Origin: Clostridiales bacterium
GTDB taxonomy: Bacteria; Bacillota; Clostridia; Lachnospirales; Lachnospiraceae
NCBI GenBank assembly: GCA_012520645.1
Contig: JAAYNV010000040.1
Coordinates: forward strand, 1 to 64,000
Length of the DNA: 64,000 bases
Reading direction: 5' to 3'
Of this stretch, positions 5,348 to 23,228 are shown piece by piece (position 1 is the first letter of the stretch; every line of letters begins with the position of its first letter). The translations under genes were made by a program, and so were the position numbers. Below the pieces are notes generated by a model, which was not told the origin of the DNA, did no database searches, and worked only from the letters and a program-made list of their open reading frames with translations.

Positions 5348-6268
5348 ATGATTGAAGTATTGAAGAAACAGATTAATGAATATTTTGTAGGAAAGGAAAA
5401 GGTGGTGGAGGACGTTCTGGTCTGTCTTCTGGCAGGCGGACATGTCCTTTTGGAAGATGTTCCGGGAGTAGGGAAGACGACACTGGTTCGTACGCTTTCC
5501 AAAGCAATTGACTGTAGCTTTGGCAGAATCCAGTTCACACCGGATACATTGCCGGGGGATGTTGTCGGTCTCTCTGTCTTTAATATGAAGACAGGTGAAT
5601 TTGAGTACAAGGAAGGGGCAATCATGCATCAGATGATTCTGGCGGATGAGATCAACAGAACATCCCCAAAGACACAGGCCTGTCTTCTGGAAGCCATGGC
5701 GGAAGGGCAGGTAACGGTGGATGGAAAGCTGTATAAACTACCGGATCCGTTCATGGTAATTGCAACACAGAACCCTGTAGAGTTTCTGGGTACCTATCCA
5801 CTGTTGGAAGCACAAATGGACCGGTTTATGATGAGGCTTACCATAGGTTATCCGGATGCCGCCGAAGAGATACATCTGGCAAAGAACTTTGTAGAAGGTA
5901 AAACAAGCGATTCTGTGGATACCGTATGCAGCGCCCGGGATATCATTGAATTAAAGAACAAGGTAAAAGAGGTATATGTGAGTGATGCGATCCTCTCTTA
6001 CATTCAGGAAATCATAAGCCTCACCCGTGAGGAGAGCAGATTTGTAATGGGCGCCAGTCCAAGGGCAATGCTTTTTCTGATATCTGCTGCAAGAGCTAAG
6101 GCGTATCTGGAGGGACGCGATTTCGTGAAACCGGATGACGTAAAGGCGGTAGCAATCAATATCCTTCATCACAGAATTACACTTACTGCAGAAGCAAAGA
6201 TTTGTAAGGAAGATATCGACAGCATTTTGAAGAGTATTGTAGTAAAGGCAAAGATTCCTATGGAGTAA
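5348..6268 (+). CDS. MoxR-family AAA+ ATPase
   Basis: GHVLLEDVPGVGKTTLVRTL Walker A; LADEINRTSPKTQACLLEAMAE. Confidence 0.92.
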   Translation: MIEVLKKQINEYFVGKEKVVEDVLVCLLAGGHVLLEDVPGVGKTTLVRTLSKAIDCSFGRIQFTPDTLPGDVVGLSVFNMKTGEFEYKEGAIMHQMILADEINRTSPKTQACLLEAMAEGQVTVDGKLYKLPDPFMVIATQNPVEFLGTYPLLEAQMDRFMMRLTIGYPDAAEEIHLAKNFVEGKTSDSVDTVCSARDIIELKNKVKEVYVSDAILSYIQEIISLTREESRFVMGASPRAMLFLISAARAKAYLEGRDFVKPDDVKAVAINILHHRITLTAEAKICKEDIDSILKSIVVKAKIPME

Positions 6269-6274
6269 TAATGT

Positions 6275-7438
6275 ATGAACAAAAATCTGATTATATTGGT
6301 CGTATTGTGGATCCTTTCTCTTGTCGGAATTTCGTTTTACGGTGGAGCGGTCAGCTACGGATTTTTTATCGTAATTACACTGATACCGGTGATTTCACTC
6401 ATATACATGCTCTTTGTATTTTTGAAGTTTACAATTTACCAGAAAATTGATATCAGAAATCTGATCAGTAATCAGACAGCACCTTTTTATTTTACGCTTC
6501 AGGATGAAAGTATGATTGCATTTTCAGGCGTTCGTGTCATTTTTTATTCCACCTTTTCCACCATAAACGGGCTGAATGACGGAATAGAATATGAACTTCA
6601 TCCACATAAGGGCATTCAGAAAAAGACGCAGATCGTATGCAAATACCGCGGAGAATACGAGGTAGGAATAAAGCAGGTAGTGATAAGAGACTTTTTCCGT
6701 CTGTTTTCAATCTGTTACAGAAACCGCGAACCGCTCCGTGTCATTGTAAAACCAAATCTTGTATATATCAGTGATCTGAGAAGTGCAGAGATTGCACTTA
6801 GTGCAGCCAGGGATTCCGGCGCGAACCGGACGGAGCCTGACGTTCTTGTAAGAGAATATGTTCCTGGGGATGACAGACGGCTCATTCACTGGAAATCCAC
6901 AGCGGCAACCCATAAACTGATGGTAAGAGAACGAATCGGAGAAGAACAACAGGGAATCGGTATCATCATGGATTCGCAGCGTTTTAGTGTCAAGATGGAA
7001 GATTACCTTCCGGTGGAAAATAAGATTCTCGAAACAGTGCTTGCCCTTACGCTTTTCTTTACAGGTAAAAATGTTCCTGTCACTGCCTATTACATGAATA
7101 GGGAAATGACAGAAACCGTCATTGAGGGAACCGCCAGATTCGATGACTTTTACGAGGAAATGGCAAAGTTTTCCTTTCGAAAGGAAAATGAGCACAGGGA
7201 AATGTTTGCCCGGATTTTGCAAAATGGCAGGATTTTTAGCAGGAAGATGGTATTTATGGTTCTTCATAAATGGAGCAGCCCTGCGGCAACCATGGCAGAG
7301 GAACTTAGCAGAAATCATATTCCTGTTGTTGCCTACATCATTTCAGACGAGAGTACAGATCGTGCGGCTCTTGAGCAGATATCCAGAACGACAGTAGTTA
7401 CCGTACCGACCGATGCAGATTTAAAAGAGGTGTTGTGA
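6275..7438 (+). CDS. DUF58 protein
   Basis: VREYVPGDDRRLIHWKSTAATHKLMVRE; follows MoxR. Confidence 0.9.
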   Translation: MNKNLIILVVLWILSLVGISFYGGAVSYGFFIVITLIPVISLIYMLFVFLKFTIYQKIDIRNLISNQTAPFYFTLQDESMIAFSGVRVIFYSTFSTINGLNDGIEYELHPHKGIQKKTQIVCKYRGEYEVGIKQVVIRDFFRLFSICYRNREPLRVIVKPNLVYISDLRSAEIALSAARDSGANRTEPDVLVREYVPGDDRRLIHWKSTAATHKLMVRERIGEEQQGIGIIMDSQRFSVKMEDYLPVENKILETVLALTLFFTGKNVPVTAYYMNREMTETVIEGTARFDDFYEEMAKFSFRKENEHREMFARILQNGRIFSRKMVFMVLHKWSSPAATMAEELSRNHIPVVAYIISDESTDRAALEQISRTTVVTVPTDADLKEVL

Positions 7439-9680
7439 TGATAGAATCGGTATATGATTTTATGTATATTATGCCGCTTTGTCTGATAGCGGCAATCTTT
7501 GGGCATTCCTATATCGGGGTCAGCGAAATCACACCACTGTTCTATGTGATCGTTAGTCTTGCAGGAACAGTCTGTGTCATTTTCCGTCATCTGAAGGTAA
7601 GAGGACGAGTCATTACAGTGGGAATAAGCTGTACGTCGCTTGTGGGGGCGGTTCTTGTGCGTGACGCGCAGGAAAGAAGTGCATTTATCCATAATAATCT
7701 TTGGGTGCTCTGGATGGTATTGATCTGTTTAGGCTGTTTTTTTGCCGGAAAGATGATTACCCATTATACGAAACTGCGGCTGGCATCAGCCTTTGTCGGA
7801 TTAGTGTCACTGATTGTCATCATGACAGCGAGAATTTCGGTAGAGAAAATAGCGGTAATGATGATATTGTTCCTTATTGTTATATCGGTTGTCGAAGAGA
7901 TACAGATCCGCTGGAAAAAGGAAGGATTTATCGATTCCAGAAAGCATCTGGTATTCATTTCTCCATTTCTGATTGCGCTTTTTTGCTTGCCGTTCTGGTA
8001 AAGACACCGGATAAGCCGTATGACTGGAAGTTTGTAAAAGACTTTGCAAACGCGGCAAGAATCAGGCTTGAGCTGCTATATCAGACATTGGTTCCGGATA
8101 AAGGATGGGACAGCAGCAATGCATCGATCGGTTTTTCTGACCGGGGAGATATCATGGGAAATATTACTTCAACACCATATGAAGTGCTTGGTATGACATC
8201 CGACTGTCAGGATAGCGCACGTATCTATTTTGGCGGAAAGACCTTTGATACATTTGATGGAAGAAAGTGGAGCAAAACGGATGAGAGTAAAACAGACTAT
8301 GCCACATTTGATACGCTTGAAACGGTAAGCGCTGTCATGAAGAGTGCTCCGAAGTCCCCTTCGGATTATCTGAGAAAAGTAAAGACAAATGTTTCGTATG
8401 TAGGTGTGAAAACGGCATGTGCCTTTACACCACCTAAAATACTGACCGTTGTGTCAGATGATGTGAATCGTATGACAGGCGGGGATATCGCTTTTTCAAC
8501 AAGAAGGAAAAACGGAGACGCCTATACGATCCAATATTACAGAGTAAATAGAGATAATCCTGATTTTCAGAAAATGCTTCGTGAAGAATATGTATTTGAT
8601 GAAAATATATGGAGAGCAGCGTTAGCCGAGACGGGGCAGTCTGATCTTACGCAGTATTCCTATGAGAATCTGATGGCATATCGTGATGAAGTCAGAAATG
8701 TTTATGGACAGCCTGTGGAACTGTCTCCACGCATGAGAGCGTTCATGGACGACCTGCTTGATGGAGCTGAGACGGATATGGATAAGCTCGAAAGAATCGA
8801 GAAGCTTCTTTGCGGGTATCAGTATAGTAATCAACCGGGAGATATTCCAGATACCGTTACTTCTCCGTCAGAATATCTGGATTACTTTGTTCTGGATAAG
8901 AAGGAGGGCTTTTGCAGTCACTATGCTACTGCATTTGTACTGCTTGCAAGAGCAGAGGGTATTCCGGCAAGGTATATCCAGGGATACAGCGTGTACTCTG
9001 AAAAGACCCATGTTGACGTTACTTCCGACAAAGCACACGCATGGCCGGAAGCCTATATAGAAGGTTATGGCTGGCTGGGCTTTGAACCAACACCAGGGTA
9101 TAAAAGAACAAGCGGCTGGACTGTTATGGAACAGGCTGGTACGGGTAATTACAACGCCGATGCGAATTATATTGAACAATATGACAAGACAGTCGATATA
9201 GTGAAGAGCAGTGGAATCAATCAGGAAGAGCCTGCTCAAAAACGTCCCATCAACTGGAAAAGAATTCTCGTTCCGGTTGGTCTTTGCGTCCTGTTTCTTT
9301 CTTTCTTTTTGATGGCAGACCATGCAAGAAAAAAGCGTAAGTATCAGAAAATGAGCAATCGCGATAAGGTGGTTACACTTTGCCGGAAGAACATGAAAAT
9401 GTTTCATCGTATGGGCTATCAACGGACAGAGGGTGAGACACTTTCGGAATACAGAAACAGAGTCAGGAAAACTGTGCCGGATGAGATATTGTCGTTTATC
9501 GATTATTACGAAAAAGTATCGTATACAGATAAAGAGATATGCGATTCGGAACTGGAAAGTATGGAAAAAATCAGTGCAGAGTGCGACAGCTATGTATGGC
9601 ATGAAATGTGGAAACGCTTTTGTGCGAGACAAAAAGAAGCGAGACAGCAAAGACATGAAAAATCTGCAAGCCACATGTAG
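7435..9680 (+). pseudogene. Membrane transglutaminase-like protein, apparently frameshifted at T6 run 7979-7984
   Basis: N-terminal TM region in frame 1 (7435-8001), remainder in frame 3 (...LAVLVKTPDKPYDWKFVK...GFCSHYATAFVLLARAEGIPARYIQGY...HAWPEAYIEGYGWLGFEPTP). Confidence 0.8.
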
Positions 9681-10090: not shown

Positions 10091-11239
10091 ATGAAGAAAA
10101 AATTACTTTCTGCGTTATTGACAACGGTTATGATCTGTCCGTTAATACTGACAGGATGTTCTAATGCAGACAAAGAGAAAGCCGATGAGGTGGCGACACT
10201 GATCGATGCAATCTATGTGCAGGAGAGAACAGATGAGACAGATGAACAATGCAAAAAGGCAAAGGCGGCGTGGGATGAATTGACGGATGCCCAGAAGGAA
10301 CTGGTGGAAGGTGAAAATGCCGATCCGGATTATTTTGGCAGAGATACCGGTGATGTATCCAGGGATGATCCGCGCAATCAGGATGAAATCGGGGAAAATG
10401 AAATTCTGGTCGTAAGCTTCGGTACTTCTTTTAATGACAGTCGTGCAGATGATATTAAAGGAATTGAGGATGCACTGCAGGAGGCATATCCTGACTGGTC
10501 GGTAAGAAGAGCATTTACGGCGCAGATTATTATTAATCATGTGCAGGCACGGGACGGCGAGTGTATTGATAATATGGATCAGGCATTGGAGCGTGCTGTG
10601 AAAAACGGAGTGAAGAATCTGGTAGTGCAGCCGACTCACCTGATGCACGGTGCAGAGTATGATGAATTGATGGAATCCGTGGAGACATATCGGGATCGAT
10701 TTGAGACGGTCAAGGTTGCAGAGCCGTTACTTGGTGAGGTTGGAGCAGATGCCACTGTCATCAATGCGGATAAGGCTGCAGTTGCAGAAGCAGTTACCGC
10801 AGAAGCGGTGAAGGATGCAGGTTATGACAGTCTGGATGCAGCAGCAGAAGATGGGACAGCATTTGTATTTATGGGACATGGTACTTCTCATACGGCGAAG
10901 GTTTCCTATAGCCAGATGCAGACGCAGATGGGTGAGCTTGGATATGATAATGTGTTTATCGGAACAGTGGAAGGAGAACCGGAAGAGACTTCCTGTGAGG
11001 CGGTCATAGATGCAGCTGCAAAGGCAGGTTATACCAAAGTAATTCTCCGTCCATTAATGGTTGTAGCAGGAGACCATGCCAATAACGATATGGCAGGAGA
11101 TGAGGAAGATTCCTGGATTAGTATGTTTCAGGCATCCGGCAAATTTGAACGTGTGGATGCACAGATTTCCGGTCTTGGTGCGATTGATGCCGTTCAGCAA
11201 ATCTATGTGGCGCATACGGCAGATGCCATGAAAAAATAG
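10091..11239 (+). CDS. Secreted lipoprotein CbiK-like sirohydrochlorin cobaltochelatase family protein
   Basis: Lipobox LILTGCSN; VVSFGTSFNDSRADDIKGIEDAL and AFVFMGHGTSHTAK chelatase motifs. Confidence 0.85.
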   Translation: MKKKLLSALLTTVMICPLILTGCSNADKEKADEVATLIDAIYVQERTDETDEQCKKAKAAWDELTDAQKELVEGENADPDYFGRDTGDVSRDDPRNQDEIGENEILVVSFGTSFNDSRADDIKGIEDALQEAYPDWSVRRAFTAQIIINHVQARDGECIDNMDQALERAVKNGVKNLVVQPTHLMHGAEYDELMESVETYRDRFETVKVAEPLLGEVGADATVINADKAAVAEAVTAEAVKDAGYDSLDAAAEDGTAFVFMGHGTSHTAKVSYSQMQTQMGELGYDNVFIGTVEGEPEETSCEAVIDAAAKAGYTKVILRPLMVVAGDHANNDMAGDEEDSWISMFQASGKFERVDAQISGLGAIDAVQQIYVAHTADAMKK

Positions 11240-11260: not shown

Positions 11261-12148
11261 ATGAAAAAGAAAATGAATGTAATCTGTGGTATACTTTTTG
11301 CCTGCACATTGCTTGGCGGGTGTGTGGATAAGAGCAGTATGCAGGAACCGGAAACGGCGGTTACGGTCGTGGAGACAGCCGTCCAGACAACGGAGCCGGA
11401 AGAAGCGGCAGAGACACCGGCAGCACTGCCGGATGGAGTTTATCTGGCGGATTTTAATACAGACAGTGGAATGTTCCATGTAAATGAGGCTTGTGACGGT
11501 AAGGGAACACTGAACGTAAAGAATGGAAAGATGGAGATTCATGTTTCTCTGGTGTCCAAGAAGATTGTGAATCTGTATCCCGGACTTTCAGAGGATGCAA
11601 AGAAGGATGGGGCAGAGCTGCTTTTGCCAACGGTAGATAGCGTGACATACAGTGACGGCATGACAGAGGAGGTCTATGGTTTTGATGTGCCGGTTCCAGC
11701 ATTGGATGAAGAATTTGATCTGGCACTGATCGGTGTCAAAGGAATCTGGTATGACCATAAGGTCAGTGTTTCCAATCCGGAGCCTGTGAAGGATGGGGAA
11801 GCATTGGAAGACAGCGACATTATGCCGGTGGATGGGACTTATACCATTGAGCTTACGTTTGAAGGCGGAAGCGGAAAGGCGGAGATTTTATCTCCTGCAG
11901 TCATTACGGTGACAGAGGGGAAGGTGACTGCAACAGTACAGTGGAGCAGCCCGAATTATGACTATATGATAGTGGGCGGAGAAAAGTATCTTCCGGTCAA
12001 TACAGAGGGAGATTCGGTATTTGAGATTCCGGTTCTGCTTTTTGATGAGCCGATGGATGTGATCGGCGATACCGTTGCAATGAGTAAGTCGCATGAAATT
12101 GAATATACCCTTACATTTCATGCGGATACGATGAAGCCAATGGAATAA
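11261..12148 (+). CDS. Lipoprotein with two related beta-sandwich-like repeats
   Basis: Lipobox LLGGCVDK; repeat-like LPDGVYLADF... and PVDGTYTIELTFEGGSGKAEILSPAVITVTEGKVTATVQWSSPNYDYMIV. Confidence 0.65.
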   Translation: MKKKMNVICGILFACTLLGGCVDKSSMQEPETAVTVVETAVQTTEPEEAAETPAALPDGVYLADFNTDSGMFHVNEACDGKGTLNVKNGKMEIHVSLVSKKIVNLYPGLSEDAKKDGAELLLPTVDSVTYSDGMTEEVYGFDVPVPALDEEFDLALIGVKGIWYDHKVSVSNPEPVKDGEALEDSDIMPVDGTYTIELTFEGGSGKAEILSPAVITVTEGKVTATVQWSSPNYDYMIVGGEKYLPVNTEGDSVFEIPVLLFDEPMDVIGDTVAMSKSHEIEYTLTFHADTMKPME

Positions 12149-12230: not shown

Positions 12231-12845
12231 TTAGCCTATTTTCAAAAAATTCAGAGACCCTGCCGGATTTTCGGTGCCCTTTTCCAGTAATGAAATCAAT
12301 CCCAGTATGGTATTGTCCACCTCGCTTTCCGAAGAGGGTACCAGAGTATTATCCAGCTTTATAGTGAGTACAATGAGTACAATTTCTGCCAGCGCAGCCG
12401 GGTAGTCAAAATGGATGGAGCCGCATTCGATCCCCTGACAGATTATATCGGTTAAAACGGGCTTCAATTCGGTAACGAGATAATGAAGATATTTCTGATG
12501 TAAAAAAGCCTGTTCCTTGTCATCGGTCGGAGCCGTCTTGCTGTTCTGTGCATGAAATTCCCCGGAAATATTGCGGCATGCCTGAAAAATCATTGCCATC
12601 CGGGTAAACGGAGATATGTCTTTTTGCTCCGCAAGGTGCTTTGCCGTTTCCATTGGCTGCTTGTAGTTGCGCTCGATCAAAGCATCCAGTATGGCATCTT
12701 TGGAAGGGAAATAGTAGTAAATGCTTCCCTTACCGATTCCGGCGGTCTGTGCGATTTCGCTGACGGATATATCCTGAATTTTTTTTTCGACCAGAAGTGT
12801 CTGTAAGGCATCCAGTATCTGATCAGATTTTGTGCTGCTTGGCAT
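12231..12845 (-). CDS. TetR-family regulator
   Basis: ISVSEIAQTAGIGKGSIYYYFPSKDAILDALIE. Confidence 0.9.
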   Translation of the reverse strand: MPSSTKSDQILDALQTLLVEKKIQDISVSEIAQTAGIGKGSIYYYFPSKDAILDALIERNYKQPMETAKHLAEQKDISPFTRMAMIFQACRNISGEFHAQNSKTAPTDDKEQAFLHQKYLHYLVTELKPVLTDIICQGIECGSIHFDYPAALAEIVLIVLTIKLDNTLVPSSESEVDNTILGLISLLEKGTENPAGSLNFLKIG

Positions 12846-12993
12846 GGTTATTCTTTTCCCCCAGTTTGAACGGAATGATTCGAATTATTTAACAGTATAC
12901 CATGCAAAATCCGAGCTGTACAAGCAGAAAAAATGTGTAAGACAGGAAAAGGCAGAAAAAAACAGATATGTACAACTTTTAGAATGATTCATA

Positions 12994-13050
12994 TTGACCC
13001 GAGGTCGAAAAAAGTGTTACATTACAGAAGAAATTAAACGACCGTTGGTC
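12994..13050 (+). promoter_or_regulatory. Promoter with two palindromic operators
   Basis: TTGACC -35 with TACATT-like -10; GACCCGAGGTCGAAAAA at 12996 and GACCGTTGGTCGAAAAA at 13040. Confidence 0.7.
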
Positions 13051-13077
13051 GAAAAAGTTTAGTAGAAGGAGGACGAT

Positions 13078-13407
13078 ATGACATACGCAGAATTTTTCTC
13101 GAAAATCAAAGGAAAATTTATGGAGGCAGATGTAAGTGGTATTAAGGAGCATCTTGCGTATCAGTTTAACATCGTAGGGGAGGCACAGGGAATTTTTTAC
13201 ATAGAGGTAAAGGACGGCAAACTGAGTGTGGAGCCGTATGAATATTATGACAGGGATGCAATGTTTATCTGTACTGCCGAAACGTTAAGAAAGCTGGAGT
13301 CCGGAAAGCTGGATCCGATTGCTGCGGTGACGCTGCAGAAGCTGAAGGTAGAGGGCAACATTGATAAAGCATTGAGATTAAAGGAACTGATTGACAGCTA
13401 CAAATAA
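13078..13407 (+). CDS. SCP2 sterol-binding-like domain protein
   Basis: FNIVGEAQGIFYIEVKDGKLSVEPYEYYDRDAMFICTAETLRKLESGKLDP. Confidence 0.75.
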   Translation: MTYAEFFSKIKGKFMEADVSGIKEHLAYQFNIVGEAQGIFYIEVKDGKLSVEPYEYYDRDAMFICTAETLRKLESGKLDPIAAVTLQKLKVEGNIDKALRLKELIDSYK

Positions 13408-13467
13408 AAACTGCAGGTTGAGGCAGATGAAAAGTCCATTGTGTGAAAATGGGGAAATGGAGCAGAA

Positions 13468-14415
13468 ATGAAAAAAATATTGAAAGCAGCCGCACTGCTT
13501 GCCGGGGTGACGGCAGCTGCCAGTGCAGGAGGAACCGCCTATTTTTACCGCAGAACGATGAAGCGGTATAACGCCAAAGTAGAGCGGACCATGAAAATGT
13601 CAGGAACCGACTGGAACCAGTATATGCCTTTGATGGAAACGAGAAAGGCGTACATGTTAGAGCAGCCGCACGAGGATGTTTATATTACCTCTGAGGACGG
13701 ACTGAAGCTCCACGGGGTATATTTCCCGGGTAAGGCGGATGCGGATAAACTGGTCATCTGCTGTCATGGTTATACCAGTCATTGTATGAGCGATTACATA
13801 GGATTATCCGATTATTATTTAAAGCACGGCTTTCGTATGCTTTTAGTGGATGCGAGGGCACACGGGCAGAGTGAAGGAACCTATATCGGTTTTGGCTGTC
13901 CGGACCGGAGGGATGTGCTTGGATGGATACATTGGGTGATTGAAAACTGCGGAGAACGGATGCAGATTCTTTTGCATGGTACCTCCATGGGAGGGGCTAC
14001 TGTGCTGATGACAAGCGGGTTGGAATTGCCGGAACAGGTAAAAGGAATTGTTTCCGACTGTGGATTTACTTCTCCGAAATATGTATTTACTCATGTATTG
14101 CATACGATGTATCATCTTCCAGCGTTTCCGATGATTCCGATTGCAGATTATGTCAATCGAAAAAGAGCAGGATACGGACTGGATGAATGCAATGCGGCAC
14201 GCGAGGTAAAAAAAGCAAAAGTGCCGATTCTTCTGATCCACGGAGATAAGGATAATTTTGTACCGTGTCAGATGTGTGAGGAAATATATGAGAATTGTGC
14301 ATCCCCGAAGACGAAATTAATCGTAGCCGGAGCTGCCCATGCAGAGAGTTATTATAAAGATATGGCAGCTTATGAACAGGCATTGGATGACTTTACAGGA
14401 GGTGCTTTAAAATGA
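13468..14415 (+). CDS. Alpha/beta hydrolase
   Basis: HGYTSH..., DARAHGQSEGTYIGFG, LLHGTSMGGATVLM, PILLIHGDKDNFVP. Confidence 0.9.
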   Translation: MKKILKAAALLAGVTAAASAGGTAYFYRRTMKRYNAKVERTMKMSGTDWNQYMPLMETRKAYMLEQPHEDVYITSEDGLKLHGVYFPGKADADKLVICCHGYTSHCMSDYIGLSDYYLKHGFRMLLVDARAHGQSEGTYIGFGCPDRRDVLGWIHWVIENCGERMQILLHGTSMGGATVLMTSGLELPEQVKGIVSDCGFTSPKYVFTHVLHTMYHLPAFPMIPIADYVNRKRAGYGLDECNAAREVKKAKVPILLIHGDKDNFVPCQMCEEIYENCASPKTKLIVAGAAHAESYYKDMAAYEQALDDFTGGALK

Positions 14416-15818
14416 TGAAAACAAGAAAAGGATATCCGGTATATCCGCTCACGGCAGCCCAGAAATTTCACTTGTTCTATCAGGATTTCTGCCCCAAAAA
14501 GGAAGTCCTTAATATCGGAACCAGTCTGACCATCGGAGCGGATATCGACTGGGATGTTTTAAAGCAGTCCGTATACAAGGCGATTGAGCGCCGTGATTCC
14601 ATGCGTCTGCGTTTTGCCAGGGATAAAGATGGAAACTGGTATCAGTATGTAGTGGAGAAAGAAGAGAGAGACATCGAATTTGTGGATTTTTCCAATCAGT
14701 CCATGGAAGAAGCCGAGGCACAAATGCGCAAATGGACGCAGGTGCCGTTTAAACGGGAAGATTCACCGATGAACCGTGTAGTCATGATTAAGACCTCGGA
14801 CGGCTTCAACGGTCTGTATCTGCTGATCGATCATATGACAGCGGATGCCCAGTCATTGATTGGATTTTTAAAGGATGTCATTGAGCTTTATTGTCATACA
14901 AAGTTTGAAAATGTACCTTATCCGAAGGAGATGGCTTCCTATATTGAGCAGCTTCAGAAGGATTTGGAATACGAAGCAGGAAGCAAGGCAAAGGAGCGCG
15001 ACGAGAAGTTTTTCCAGGATTTAATCGATAACAGCACGGAACCGATCTACAATGGCATCAGGGGAACCGGACAGTTGGAGGCAGAAAGAGAAAGAACCGG
15101 AAATCCGAATGCCAGAGCCGCTATTAATGTTTCCGACTCGGTGGATTCGGCACTGGATATTTTCCATCTGGAGGAGGAACCGACAAAACGGCTGCTTGAT
15201 TTTTGTGAGAAATATCATGTATCGCTTGTATGTCTGCTGATTATGGGACTGCGGACTTATTTCCAGAAAATGAACGGAAATGATGATGTATCTATCAATA
15301 CGGCAATCGCCAGACGCGCTACATTAAAGGAAAAACGATCCGGTGGAACGAGAATCCATTCCTTCCCATTCCGTACGATTATTTCCGAAGACAAGACCTT
15401 TTTGGAAGGTATTTATGAGATTCGTGACCTGCAGAATACCTATTTCCGTCATGCTAACTACGATCCGGTACAGTATTTTGCTTACCGCGGACGCAAATAT
15501 CCGTACAAGAACGGTGAGACCTACGAGCCGATGTCACTGACCTATCAGCCGCTTACACTTCAGGCAAAGTCGCTGGATGATCTGGGTGGAATTAAGTATA
15601 AGACAAAATGGTATCCGAATGGGGCGACGACACAGGCTATGTACCTGACCGTTATGCACAGACCGGAGGACAACGGTCTTGATTTTAACTTTGAACATCA
15701 GGTGAAGGCAGTCAGCAGAGAAGATCTGGAGTACCTGTACTATTATCTTTGCAAGATTATGTTTAAGGGAACCGAAAATCCGAATCTGCCGATTGGTGAT
15801 ATTATTAAGTTGATTTAA
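14412..15818 (+). CDS. Condensation-like/acyltransferase superfamily protein
   Basis: YPLTAAQKFHLFYQDF; LLIDHMTADAQS (variant of HHxxxDG keeping the second His and the Asp). Confidence 0.7.
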   Translation: MMKTRKGYPVYPLTAAQKFHLFYQDFCPKKEVLNIGTSLTIGADIDWDVLKQSVYKAIERRDSMRLRFARDKDGNWYQYVVEKEERDIEFVDFSNQSMEEAEAQMRKWTQVPFKREDSPMNRVVMIKTSDGFNGLYLLIDHMTADAQSLIGFLKDVIELYCHTKFENVPYPKEMASYIEQLQKDLEYEAGSKAKERDEKFFQDLIDNSTEPIYNGIRGTGQLEAERERTGNPNARAAINVSDSVDSALDIFHLEEEPTKRLLDFCEKYHVSLVCLLIMGLRTYFQKMNGNDDVSINTAIARRATLKEKRSGGTRIHSFPFRTIISEDKTFLEGIYEIRDLQNTYFRHANYDPVQYFAYRGRKYPYKNGETYEPMSLTYQPLTLQAKSLDDLGGIKYKTKWYPNGATTQAMYLTVMHRPEDNGLDFNFEHQVKAVSREDLEYLYYYLCKIMFKGTENPNLPIGDIIKLI

Positions 15819-15848
15819 TGTTGGACTGCTATTAGGAGGAGAGAGGTC

Positions 15849-16082
15849 ATGTTTGATAGATTAGTTGGAATTATTGGCAATTATGTAGATGTTGAGCCGG
15901 AAAATATTCATCCGGAATCACGTTTTATGGAAGATCTGGGGTTTACCTCCTTTGATTTTATGAGCATGCTCGGAGAATTGGAGGATGAACTGGATGTGGA
16001 GATTGATGAACAGGAGGCTGTTAATATCCGTACGGTACAGGAAGCAGCTGACTATCTGGAAAAGCTTGCCAGTGAAGAGTAG
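15849..16082 (+). CDS. Acyl/peptidyl carrier protein
   Basis: MEDLGFTSFDFMSMLGELEDELDVEIDEQEAVNIRTVQEAADYL. Confidence 0.85.
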   Translation: MFDRLVGIIGNYVDVEPENIHPESRFMEDLGFTSFDFMSMLGELEDELDVEIDEQEAVNIRTVQEAADYLEKLASEE

Positions 16083-16093
16083 GAGGAACAAGA

Positions 16094-17602
16094 ATGCAGT
16101 GCAGTACGATTCGTGAGATTTTAGTATATGCAGCAGAAAAATTCGGCGATGGGGATGCCATTCGCTACAAGGTAAAAAAGGACGTGACAGAGTCCAAATC
16201 CTATACACAGCTTAAAGCAGACAGTGAGAGCTTCTCCAAAGTTCTGGAAGAACTGGGAGAGAACGGACATCATATTGCAGTTACCGGAATGACATCCTAT
16301 CCATGGCTTGTAACCTATTTTGGAACCGTAAACAGCGGAAGCGTGGCGGTGCCGTTGGATGTATCCCTGCCGGCAGAGGAAATGTGCGAACTGATTGACC
16401 GTGCGGATGTGACGGTATTTGTGTTTGATGAAATCCGTAAGGATGTTGCTGCAATCGTGAAGGAACGCTGTCCGAAGCTCAAATATCTGATTTCCATGCA
16501 GAAGGAGACCGGGGATGAGGAAAGTCTTTCCTTCTGGGAGCTTTTAAAAAAGCAGGACGGAAGCTATGCTTTTATGCCTCAGCCCGATAGTCTTTGTACG
16601 ATCATGTTTACTTCGGGAACGACCGGGAAGAGTAAGGGTGTTATGCTTACGCATAGAAATATGGCAGAAAATGCGACCTGTCTGGATATGAAGATTGCGG
16701 AAAGAACGGTCATTTTATCCGTGCTGCCAATCCATCATGCCTATTGTCTTAGCATGGATATCCTGAAGGGAATTTCGCTTGGAAGCATTATCTGTATCAA
16801 TGATTCCCTGTTACGTGTGGCAAAGAATATCAAGCTGTTTAAGCTGAATATGATTCTGATGGTACCGCTTATGATCGAGACGATGGCAAAAAAGCTGGAA
16901 GAGGCATCGCTTCTTCCCCCTAAAATTGTGAAGCATCAGGTATTTGGAGAGCAGTTCCATACGATCTGCAGTGGTGGCGCTTATTTGAATCCGGCATATA
17001 TCGACTTGTTTGCAAAGTATGGAATTACGATTTTGCAGGGGTACGGCATGACGGAATGTGCTCCGGTTATCAGCACGACAATAAGCTGGGATATCCGCAA
17101 GGATTCTGTCGGACAGCTTCTGCCAAACTGTGAGGCAAAGAGCGTGGACGGAGAGCTGTGGGTGCGCGGCAGCAGTGTCATGCAGGGATATTACAAGATG
17201 CCGGAGGAAACCGCTGAGGCATTACAGGACGGGTGGCTTAGAACCGGTGATCTGGGATACGTTGGCGAGGACAATTTTGTGTATCTGACCGGCAGGAAGA
17301 AGAATCTGATCATTACAAAGAACGGTGAGAATGTGTCTCCGGAAGAGCTGGAAAATAAGCTTGGAGAACAGCGTTTGGTACAGGAAATCCTGGTGCGTGA
17401 GAACGAAGGTGTGATCGAAGCGGAGATTTTCCCGGATTATGATTATGTAAAGAAAAAGCGAATCAAGGATATTCCGGGCGAGCTTCAGAAGGTGATTGAC
17501 GATTATAATAAGACAGCACCGGCATATAAAAAAATTTACAGCCTAAAGGTAAGAGAAACGGAATTCGAGAAGACACCATCTAAGAAGATAAAGCGGTATT
17601 AG
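16094..17602 (+). CDS. AMP-binding acyl-CoA/ACP synthetase-like ligase
   Basis: CTIMFTSGTTGKSKGVMLTHRNMAE; GYGMTECAPVIS; RTGDLGYVGED; C-terminal EKTPSKKIKRY. Confidence 0.93.
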   Translation: MQCSTIREILVYAAEKFGDGDAIRYKVKKDVTESKSYTQLKADSESFSKVLEELGENGHHIAVTGMTSYPWLVTYFGTVNSGSVAVPLDVSLPAEEMCELIDRADVTVFVFDEIRKDVAAIVKERCPKLKYLISMQKETGDEESLSFWELLKKQDGSYAFMPQPDSLCTIMFTSGTTGKSKGVMLTHRNMAENATCLDMKIAERTVILSVLPIHHAYCLSMDILKGISLGSIICINDSLLRVAKNIKLFKLNMILMVPLMIETMAKKLEEASLLPPKIVKHQVFGEQFHTICSGGAYLNPAYIDLFAKYGITILQGYGMTECAPVISTTISWDIRKDSVGQLLPNCEAKSVDGELWVRGSSVMQGYYKMPEETAEALQDGWLRTGDLGYVGEDNFVYLTGRKKNLIITKNGENVSPEELENKLGEQRLVQEILVRENEGVIEAEIFPDYDYVKKKRIKDIPGELQKVIDDYNKTAPAYKKIYSLKVRETEFEKTPSKKIKRY

Positions 17603-17645: not shown

Positions 17646-17682
17646 ACCCTTTGGAGCAGTGTGCCCAAAGGGTTTTTGTTTT
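17646..17682 (+). terminator. Rho-independent terminator
   Basis: ACCCTTTGG...CCAAAGGGTTTTTGTTTT. Confidence 0.85.
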
Positions 17683-17743
17683 AATGGATTGTATGAAATA
17701 CGGTGCAGTTTTTAGAAGAATCTGATCAGGAGGAAAGTTTGAT

Positions 17744-21845: not shown

Positions 21846-23228
21846 ATGCATATATTTATATCGCATTCCTCAAAGGATGCAGAAACTGCCATGCAGGTAT
21901 GCAGATTGCTGGAGGAGCACGGAAAACCATGTTTTATCGCACCCAGAGATATCCGAATGGGAAAAGAGTATGCAGCAGAAATCGTGGATGGGATTGACCA
22001 TGCACAGGCGGTAGTGCTGTTAATGTCCAGAGCGGCAAACCAGTCCCCGCATGTACTGCGTGAGGTAGAGCGTGCCGTAAGCAAGTCCATTCCGATTCTG
22101 GTATGTAAACTGGAAGAGGTGGAACTGTCAAAGTCCATGGAGTATTTCCTGATGGCACATCAGTGGGTTTGTGACGGGACGGGAGAGGACGACTCAAAAA
22201 TACTGGCGATTCTTCGTGATTTTGAAAAGCAAAAAGAGCAGAAGGCAATACCGGAGCAGAAGATACCGAATCAGAAAATTCCGAATCAGAAAGTTCCGAA
22301 TAGAATCGGTCGGGGGATTCCTGCAAAAAGACGGCTTCAAAAGGCTGCGGTTATGCTGCTCCTTATCATCTTGCTTGCGGTCGGTCTGGGAGCCTGTTAT
22401 TTTGCCAAAACAGGAAGGGTGCAGACAGCCGGAGATATTGCGCTTAAAGAGGGGGATACCGTAGTGTTTGGAAGTTATAACGGTGAGCCCATCAGCTGGC
22501 GGGTACTGAAAGTGAATGAAGATCAGAAAAGTGCGGTTCTGGTAGCAAAGCATGTTCTTACGATGAAGGCTTTTGATGCGGCAGAAAGTGGTAGCTATAA
22601 CAGGGATGATACCAAGGATTACTGGGGGCAGCAGACAGAGGCGGATACGGACTTGAAGTTGCAGGCGTATGTTCGGGGAAGCAGTGAATGGAGAACCTCC
22701 AATATCAGAACCTGGCTGAATTCAGAGGATGAGGTTGTTGCATATACGGATCAGCCGCCTAAGAAAACTGCCATGGCAGAGCATAAAAACGGTTATGAGC
22801 ATGAGACGGGATTTCTGTATGATTTTACGGAAGCAGAACGTGCGGCGTTATTGGAAACGGAAATTGTGACAAGGGGAAATGCAGTGGCAGAGAGTGAAAC
22901 GATTACCACACAGGACCGGGTTTATCTGCTGTCCAGAGAAGAATTAAAATGGTTTGAGGAAGCCGGCATGAACCAGCTTGCCCTGCCGACAGAGGTAGCT
23001 GTAACACAGGATGAGAGCGGCTGGTATGCTTTGGAATTGAAGGAATATGGAATCAAGGAATGCAGCTGGTGGTTAAGAGATCCGGTGGAGAACGCTTCAA
23101 GTCTTTGCTATATGGTAGGAAATGGGTATGCAGATAATAATATATGGGAACGGAATGCAGGACTGGAGGGCTTTGGCATCCGTCCGGCGGTCACGGTGGA
23201 TTTGAGCGCAGGATGTCTACAGGAGTAG
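21846..23228 (+). CDS. TIR domain - TM helix - DUF6273-like domain protein
   Basis: MHIFISHSSKDAETAMQVCRLLEEHGKPCFIAPRDIRMG...; TM VMLLLIILLAVGLGACYF; C-terminal WRTSNIRTWLNSE...WWLRDP...GIRPAVTVDL. Confidence 0.85.
   Translation: MHIFISHSSKDAETAMQVCRLLEEHGKPCFIAPRDIRMGKEYAAEIVDGIDHAQAVVLLMSRAANQSPHVLREVERAVSKSIPILVCKLEEVELSKSMEYFLMAHQWVCDGTGEDDSKILAILRDFEKQKEQKAIPEQKIPNQKIPNQKVPNRIGRGIPAKRRLQKAAVMLLLIILLAVGLGACYFAKTGRVQTAGDIALKEGDTVVFGSYNGEPISWRVLKVNEDQKSAVLVAKHVLTMKAFDAAESGSYNRDDTKDYWGQQTEADTDLKLQAYVRGSSEWRTSNIRTWLNSEDEVVAYTDQPPKKTAMAEHKNGYEHETGFLYDFTEAERAALLETEIVTRGNAVAESETITTQDRVYLLSREELKWFEEAGMNQLALPTEVAVTQDESGWYALELKEYGIKECSWWLRDPVENASSLCYMVGNGYADNNIWERNAGLEGFGIRPAVTVDLSAGCLQE
22248..22304 (+). 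repeat. 15-bp tandem repeat encoding (I/V)P(E/N)QK linker
   Basis: ATACCGGAGCAGAAG ATACCGAATCAGAAA ATTCCGAATCAGAAA GTTCCGAATAGA. Confidence 0.9.

Follow-up and report, generated by a model that had tools for sequence, protein, structure and literature searches.

Our analysis indicates, with a probability of about 0.87, that the gene cluster at positions 12231-17602 of the window (the whole 64,000-nucleotide stretch of DNA analysed here) serves the biosynthesis of fatty acid amides (FAA; N-acyl amines) and represents a C-carrier-ligase (CTA) operon, an assignment made by analogy with characterized relatives of its condensation (C) protein. It is a gut-type operon of a sort that has only lately been recognized and that, by the same analogy, most likely couples fatty acids with small amines, giving hormone-like lipids. 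An earlier note on this DNA had described five close-packed genes with a divergent TetR gene and a terminator, and all of them were found at the positions it had given. The features of the locus are as follows.

12231 to 12845, minus strand: TetR-family regulator, divergent from the operon (Pfam TetR_N, 1.9e-12; TetR_C_39, 2.3e-8)
12994 to 13009, unstranded: predicted operator 1, TTGACC-CGA-GGTCGAA, whose left half is the -35 hexamer TTGACC
12994 to 13023, plus strand: predicted promoter, TTGACC - 18 - TACATT with TG before the second hexamer (9/12 matches)
13038 to 13053, unstranded: predicted operator 2, ACGACC-GTT-GGTCGAA, 44 bp from operator 1
13078 to 13407, plus strand: SCP2-fold lipid carrier protein (Pfam SCP2, 1.7e-12; AlphaFold model, pLDDT 92)
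13468 to 14415, plus strand: alpha/beta hydrolase of the esterase/lipase type with an N-terminal helix (Pfam Hydrolase_4, 3.5e-17; triad S173, D262, H291)
14412 to 15818, plus strand: stand-alone C protein of the fatty acid amide synthase type (Pfam Condensation, 5.5e-39; motif DHMTADA with H141 and D145)
15849 to 16082, plus strand: acyl carrier protein of 77 aa (Pfam PP-binding, 5e-12; attachment serine S34 in GFTSFDF)
16094 to 17602, plus strand: AMP-forming fatty acyl ligase, presumed acyl-ACP ligase (Pfam AMP-binding, 1.7e-62; motif FTSGTTGKSKG)
about 17646 to 17683, plus strand: intrinsic terminator, hairpin ACCCTTTGG...CCAAAGGGT, then TTTTGTTTT

The divergent TetR gene is followed by the packed SCP2, hydrolase, C, carrier and ligase genes and the terminator, and the start of the C gene overlaps the hydrolase gene by 4 bases. 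A profile search of the window's proteins placed all six gene families above the Pfam cut-off, which confirmed each of the SCP2, hydrolase, condensation, carrier and AMP-ligase families named in the earlier note. The motifs it had listed, LLIDHMTADAQS read in the C protein, GFTSFDF in the carrier and FTSGTTGKSKG in the ligase, are likewise present where it had put them. The terminator scan assigned the hairpin at about 17646-17683 to the minus strand, so the terminator may be bidirectional.

To the C protein, phmmer against PDB structures aligned 12KH over residues 10-467 (E 1.9e-109), the next-best matches being C domains of nonribosomal peptide synthetases (NRPSs) at 1e-9 or weaker. The protein in 12KH is OaaC, a stand-alone condensation protein and FAA synthase from Coprococcus eutactus; together with OaaA and OaaACP it forms the oleoyl aminovaleric acid pathway (OaaA-OaaACP-OaaC) of this bacterium (PMC13142362). 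In vitro, OaaC converts carrier-bound fatty acids and small free amines such as aminovaleric acid to amides; it depends on a loaded carrier, oleoyl-CoA is not a direct substrate, and binding of the holo or acyl-loaded carrier opens the OaaC dimer (PMC13142362). The product class, given as unknown in the earlier note, is thus indicated by this full-length match. The note's proposal that the ligase loads the carrier and the C protein transfers the acyl group is essentially what has been shown for the homologous OaaA-OaaACP-OaaC (PMC13142362). It had left the donor as acyl or amino-acyl; going by the OaaC homologue, a fatty acid is a more likely donor than an amino acid. By the same comparison a small free amine is the most likely acceptor, a point the note had missed.

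Both PMC13142362 and PMC13060934 credit Chang et al. 2021 (Nat Microbiol 6, 792) with discovering clusters like this in gut Clostridia, and C-carrier-ligase operons have been named CTA operons (PMC13060934). In living Blautia (B. wexlerae) and Coprococcus (C. catus) they have been tied to the making of acyl amines, and CTA-carrying Lachnospiraceae contain more oleoyl-, palmitoyl- and linoleoyl-ethanolamine than relatives without CTA (PMC13060934). In Blautia wexlerae, added amines rescue the cells from fatty acid toxicity, and detoxification of free fatty acids has been proposed as the role of the operon (PMC13060934). The window resembles these CTA operons of gut Clostridia and Lachnospiraceae in having separate C, carrier and ligase in one operon and in belonging to the same family. 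However, when compared by description, the CTA operons are three-gene operons, whereas the window and the other members of its clade (clade A, below) carry a five-gene, TetR-controlled form with SCP2 and hydrolase.

In the tree, the FAA-type C proteins form one branch (support 100/100) apart from the sampled C domains of large NRPSs. Within this branch the window C protein falls in clade A (support 95/99), OaaC falls in clade B, and a third group, I, comes from a sister family of the same order; the placement of one long-branched row (L146) is unsure. Clade A members are 56-82% identical to the window C protein in the family sample and at most 87% in named genomes, group I members 45-49% and clade B members 35-39%. 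One genome (G149) has both a clade A operon (L019/L044) and a clade B C protein (L145). The catalytic His and Asp and the Ala that follows (H141, D145 and A146) are present in 101/101 aligned clade A rows, and the first motif position is Asp in 91 of the 101 and Asn, His or Ser in the rest. The window's DHMTADA is an instance of the noncanonical FAA motif (D/H)HxxxD(S/A), which in clade B and group I is mostly DHxxxDS. In the published FAA set the last motif position is Ser in 42%, Ala in 36% and Gly in 17% (PMC13142362), and because of this share of Ala, clade A-type sequences are probably already included in that set.

The window and the OaaA-OaaACP-OaaC pathway are alike in that ligase, carrier and C are separate proteins; the C proteins align over their full length with the catalytic His and Asp retained, and in most of the sampled OaaC-clade (B) relatives the C, carrier and ligase genes are adjacent in that order. 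In contrast, identity to OaaC is only about 36-40%, Ser follows the catalytic Asp in OaaC where clade A has Ala, and the sampled clade B loci are without a linked SCP2 gene and without the GACC-N3-GGTC operator described below. Given this identity and the different clade, the window's donor and acceptor may differ from those of OaaC. The class nearest to FAA C proteins is that of starter condensation domains (PMC13142362), which in lipopeptide NRPSs share the condensation fold and an acyl donor but are domains of large enzymes with carrier-bound amino acid acceptors and the canonical HHxxxDG. A canonical NRPS module was rejected for the window on three grounds: C, carrier and ligase are on separate genes, the motif is DHxxxDA rather than HHxxxDG, and the tree places the C protein elsewhere. 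The cluster thus has an FAA-clade C protein with the noncanonical motif, a separate carrier and ligase with the carrier gene between those of C and ligase, and a host in the Lachnospiraceae or close kin, which are among the features by which FAA clusters are recognized.

The earlier note had named a non-conserved neighbourhood as an outcome that would count against it. The neighbourhood comparison was run, and the five-gene set is conserved, its order recurring in dozens of Lachnospiraceae, so the arrangement is far beyond chance. The exact order of minus-strand TetR, SCP2, hydrolase, C, carrier and ligase occurs in 53 of the 80 named loci, and SCP2 is present in 68 of them, several others being cut by contig ends. 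The clade A operon occurs, among other hosts, in Merdimonas faecis, in the complete genome of Claveliimonas bilis and in many metagenome-assembled genomes of Lachnospiraceae. In most relatives a TetR homologue of 43-79% identity is encoded divergently from this operon, and the hydrolase gene adjoins the C gene in almost every clade A operon. SCP2 and hydrolase are close to constant in this clade; some complete operons lack SCP2 (e.g. L102, L109 and L127), and group I of the sister family retains TetR-hydrolase-C-carrier-ligase with SCP2 absent. In the sampled clade B loci SCP2 is unlinked and the hydrolase occasional. The FAA-type cluster is frequent in the Lachnospiraceae sample and also occurs in the sister family. 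Among 399 genomes of the phylum no stand-alone C relative was found outside the order at E 1e-30, the five other matches at this threshold being larger open frames of 716-1460 aa. The flanking genes for a CbiK-like lipoprotein, a PdaC-like protein, an acetyltransferase and citrate synthase are unconserved beside relatives, and no hint of the amine was found among operon-linked genes in the window and in the relatives' neighbourhoods.

Of the accessory proteins, the hydrolase has Ser173, Asp262 and His291 invariant in 98/98 sequences. Its model (pLDDT 80) has the Pyrococcus furiosus esterase Pf2001 as nearest fold, with monoacylglycerol lipases further down. Residues 2-30 are predicted to form an N-terminal helix of borderline hydropathy (1.47; above 1.6 in only 19 of the 98), which may anchor the protein in the membrane. 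Amidases and thioesterases also occur among alpha/beta hydrolases. On the reading we prefer, the hydrolase would supply acyl chains, a role that we infer; it could also break down the amide. That it instead degrades the amide product or edits mis-loaded acyl-carrier is a lesser but real possibility, which concerns the hydrolase only and is compatible with amide synthesis by the operon. The breadth of the superfamily would suit it, as would the gene's place next to C in almost every clade A operon, but the nearest folds are esterases, monoacylglycerol lipases ranking lower, and the predicted helix, despite its borderline hydropathy, suggests attachment to the membrane.

SCP2 proteins bind sterols and other lipids. 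The SCP2 model matches SCP2 structures, among them the fatty-acid-bound 1PZ4 (mosquito SCP2 with a C16 fatty acid). Both fold and Pfam profile thus assign the protein to the SCP2 family, and a lipid-carrier role fits its predicted fold. SCP2 was rejected as a fixed part of amide synthesis and is not essential: some clade A operons and the sister family lack it, and in other genomes it stands alone. These observations also bear on the improbable case that the C protein acylates another acceptor, an alcohol (giving an ester), an amino acid, a peptide or a sterol-like molecule, with SCP2 presenting a lipid acceptor. The Ala after the catalytic Asp in clade A, the 35-39% identity to clade B and the lipids bound by SCP2 proteins would all allow it. 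However, the published FAA set already has 36% Ala at that position, some clade A operons do without SCP2, and the clade A and clade B C proteins lie in one branch.

The carrier's attachment serine is invariant in 99/99 aligned rows, and an AcpS gene was found in the window's genome; both make a carrier without phosphopantetheine, which the earlier note had listed as a refuting outcome, less likely. The best NCBIfam match of the ligase is a long-chain fatty acid-CoA ligase (7.8e-73, below the curated cut-off), and the window ligase is the only strong copy in its genome. That the operon serves mainly fatty acid salvage, making acyl-CoA or acyl-ACP for membrane lipids with supply by hydrolase and SCP2 and with C as an accessory, is very unlikely: the ligase does resemble fatty acid-CoA ligases and the hydrolase and SCP2 have lipid-handling folds, but C, carrier and ligase are kept together in a conserved operon, the catalytic residues of C are invariant, and the closest characterized relative, OaaC, needs a carrier and makes amides.

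GACC-N3-GGTC occurs twice in the gap between the TetR and SCP2 genes and nowhere else in the 64 kb window, where 0.37 copies would be expected. Across clade A the operator consensus is TYGACC-N3-GGTCGAA, with at least one copy in 77 of 85 distinct promoter regions and two copies in 44, compared with 0.4% of dinucleotide shuffles and 0/85 equal-length C-gene segments. The two copies are 42-45 bp apart in 43 of the 44 twin promoters. In 42/42 twin promoters listed the first operator begins with TTGACC and a -10-like element lies between the sites, so that the position of the promoter relative to the operators is conserved. As the -10 element score failed to separate the strands, only the -10 position and the TTGACC overlap were used. 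The operator was found in 2 of 3 group I loci and was not found in 13 clade B loci. In the window's genome TCGACC-N3-GGTCGA occurs at 10 places with at most 2 mismatches, and only the two copies of this promoter have at most 1; this rarity of near-perfect copies points to a dedicated local TetR repressor. The divergent promoter region carries a conserved palindrome, as expected of a regulator with a local operator, and TetR is a probable dedicated repressor of the operon, the sign of control being read from site position only.

In the 200-genome family sample, two genomes (G106 and G067) have the same TetR (61-71%) with its operator and an SCP2 gene (60-70%), whereas hydrolase, C, carrier and ligase are missing; this unit of TetR, GACC-N3-GGTC operator and SCP2 with the amide enzymes absent is seen at loci L169 and L170. 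In G031 (L168:5610-7563) TetR, operator and SCP2 are intact, the hydrolase, C and carrier genes are gone and the ligase is in fragments. Because a broken ligase remnant lies beside the intact parts, this is a decayed copy of the operon and reflects loss. In the same sample a short contig of G016 carries TetR and SCP2, and SCP2 occurs alone in several genomes. Since TetR goes on controlling SCP2 after loss of the amide enzymes, as would suit a regulon that responds to lipids, a lipid fits better than an amine as its inducer, a suggestion drawn from four genomes.

Taken together, AcpS would convert the carrier to the holo form, the ligase would use ATP to activate a fatty acid of medium or long chain length and attach it to the carrier, and the C protein would transfer the acyl chain onto a small amine that diffuses freely, releasing the fatty acid amide, as in homologous systems. 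For the accessory proteins, we infer that SCP2 would carry the fatty acid or the product inside the cell, and that the hydrolase, with its intact triad and possibly membrane-held, would free acyl chains from lipid esters for the ligase. By binding one or two palindromes, which lie across the -35 element and immediately beyond the promoter, TetR would keep the operon repressed, and a lipid, for instance surplus fatty acid, would lift the repression. The benefit to the cell is likely free fatty acid detoxification, with host signalling as a by-product. More tentatively, clade A may be a separate regulated form of FAA operon, in which a lipid-sensing TetR with twin operators, a membrane-held lipase, an SCP2 shuttle and the ligase, carrier and C protein lock acyl chains away as non-toxic amides, so that amide signals to the host would follow dietary lipid load.

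The earlier note had ranked the cluster as the strongest biosynthetic novelty candidate in the window; for the chemistry this is unsupported, because FAA/CTA clusters of this kind are already known. Possibly new are the arrangement in five genes, the DHxxxDA subclade in which the accessories are nearly fixed, and the twin operator conserved there. The accessible FAA/CTA literature contains no description of SCP2 and hydrolase accessories, of a twin-site repressor or of how FAA operons are switched on; Chang et al. 2021 may already draw accessory genes. Fatty acid amides made by Lachnospiraceae of the gut activate human receptors, GPR119 among them, and are reported to raise GLP-1 (PMC13142362, PMC13060934). 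With a conserved operator and a dedicated regulator, induction of an FAA operon can be tested directly, and the presence of SCP2 and hydrolase hints at a possible source of the fatty acid.

Three further observations concern the rest of the window. Upstream of the operon, a CbiK-type cobalt chelatase gene (Pfam) with a lipoprotein-like signal, PLILTGCSN, lies at 10091-11239; the next gene, at 11261-12148, is also lipoprotein-like and matches no Pfam family, and the two are possibly an extracytoplasmic metal or tetrapyrrole pair. At 5348-9680, a MoxR-type ATPase and a DUF58 protein are followed by a large transglutaminase-type-like open reading frame, which looks like the common MoxR-DUF58 set. 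Downstream of a citrate synthase gene, a protein encoded at 21846-23228 combines a TIR domain and DUF6273.
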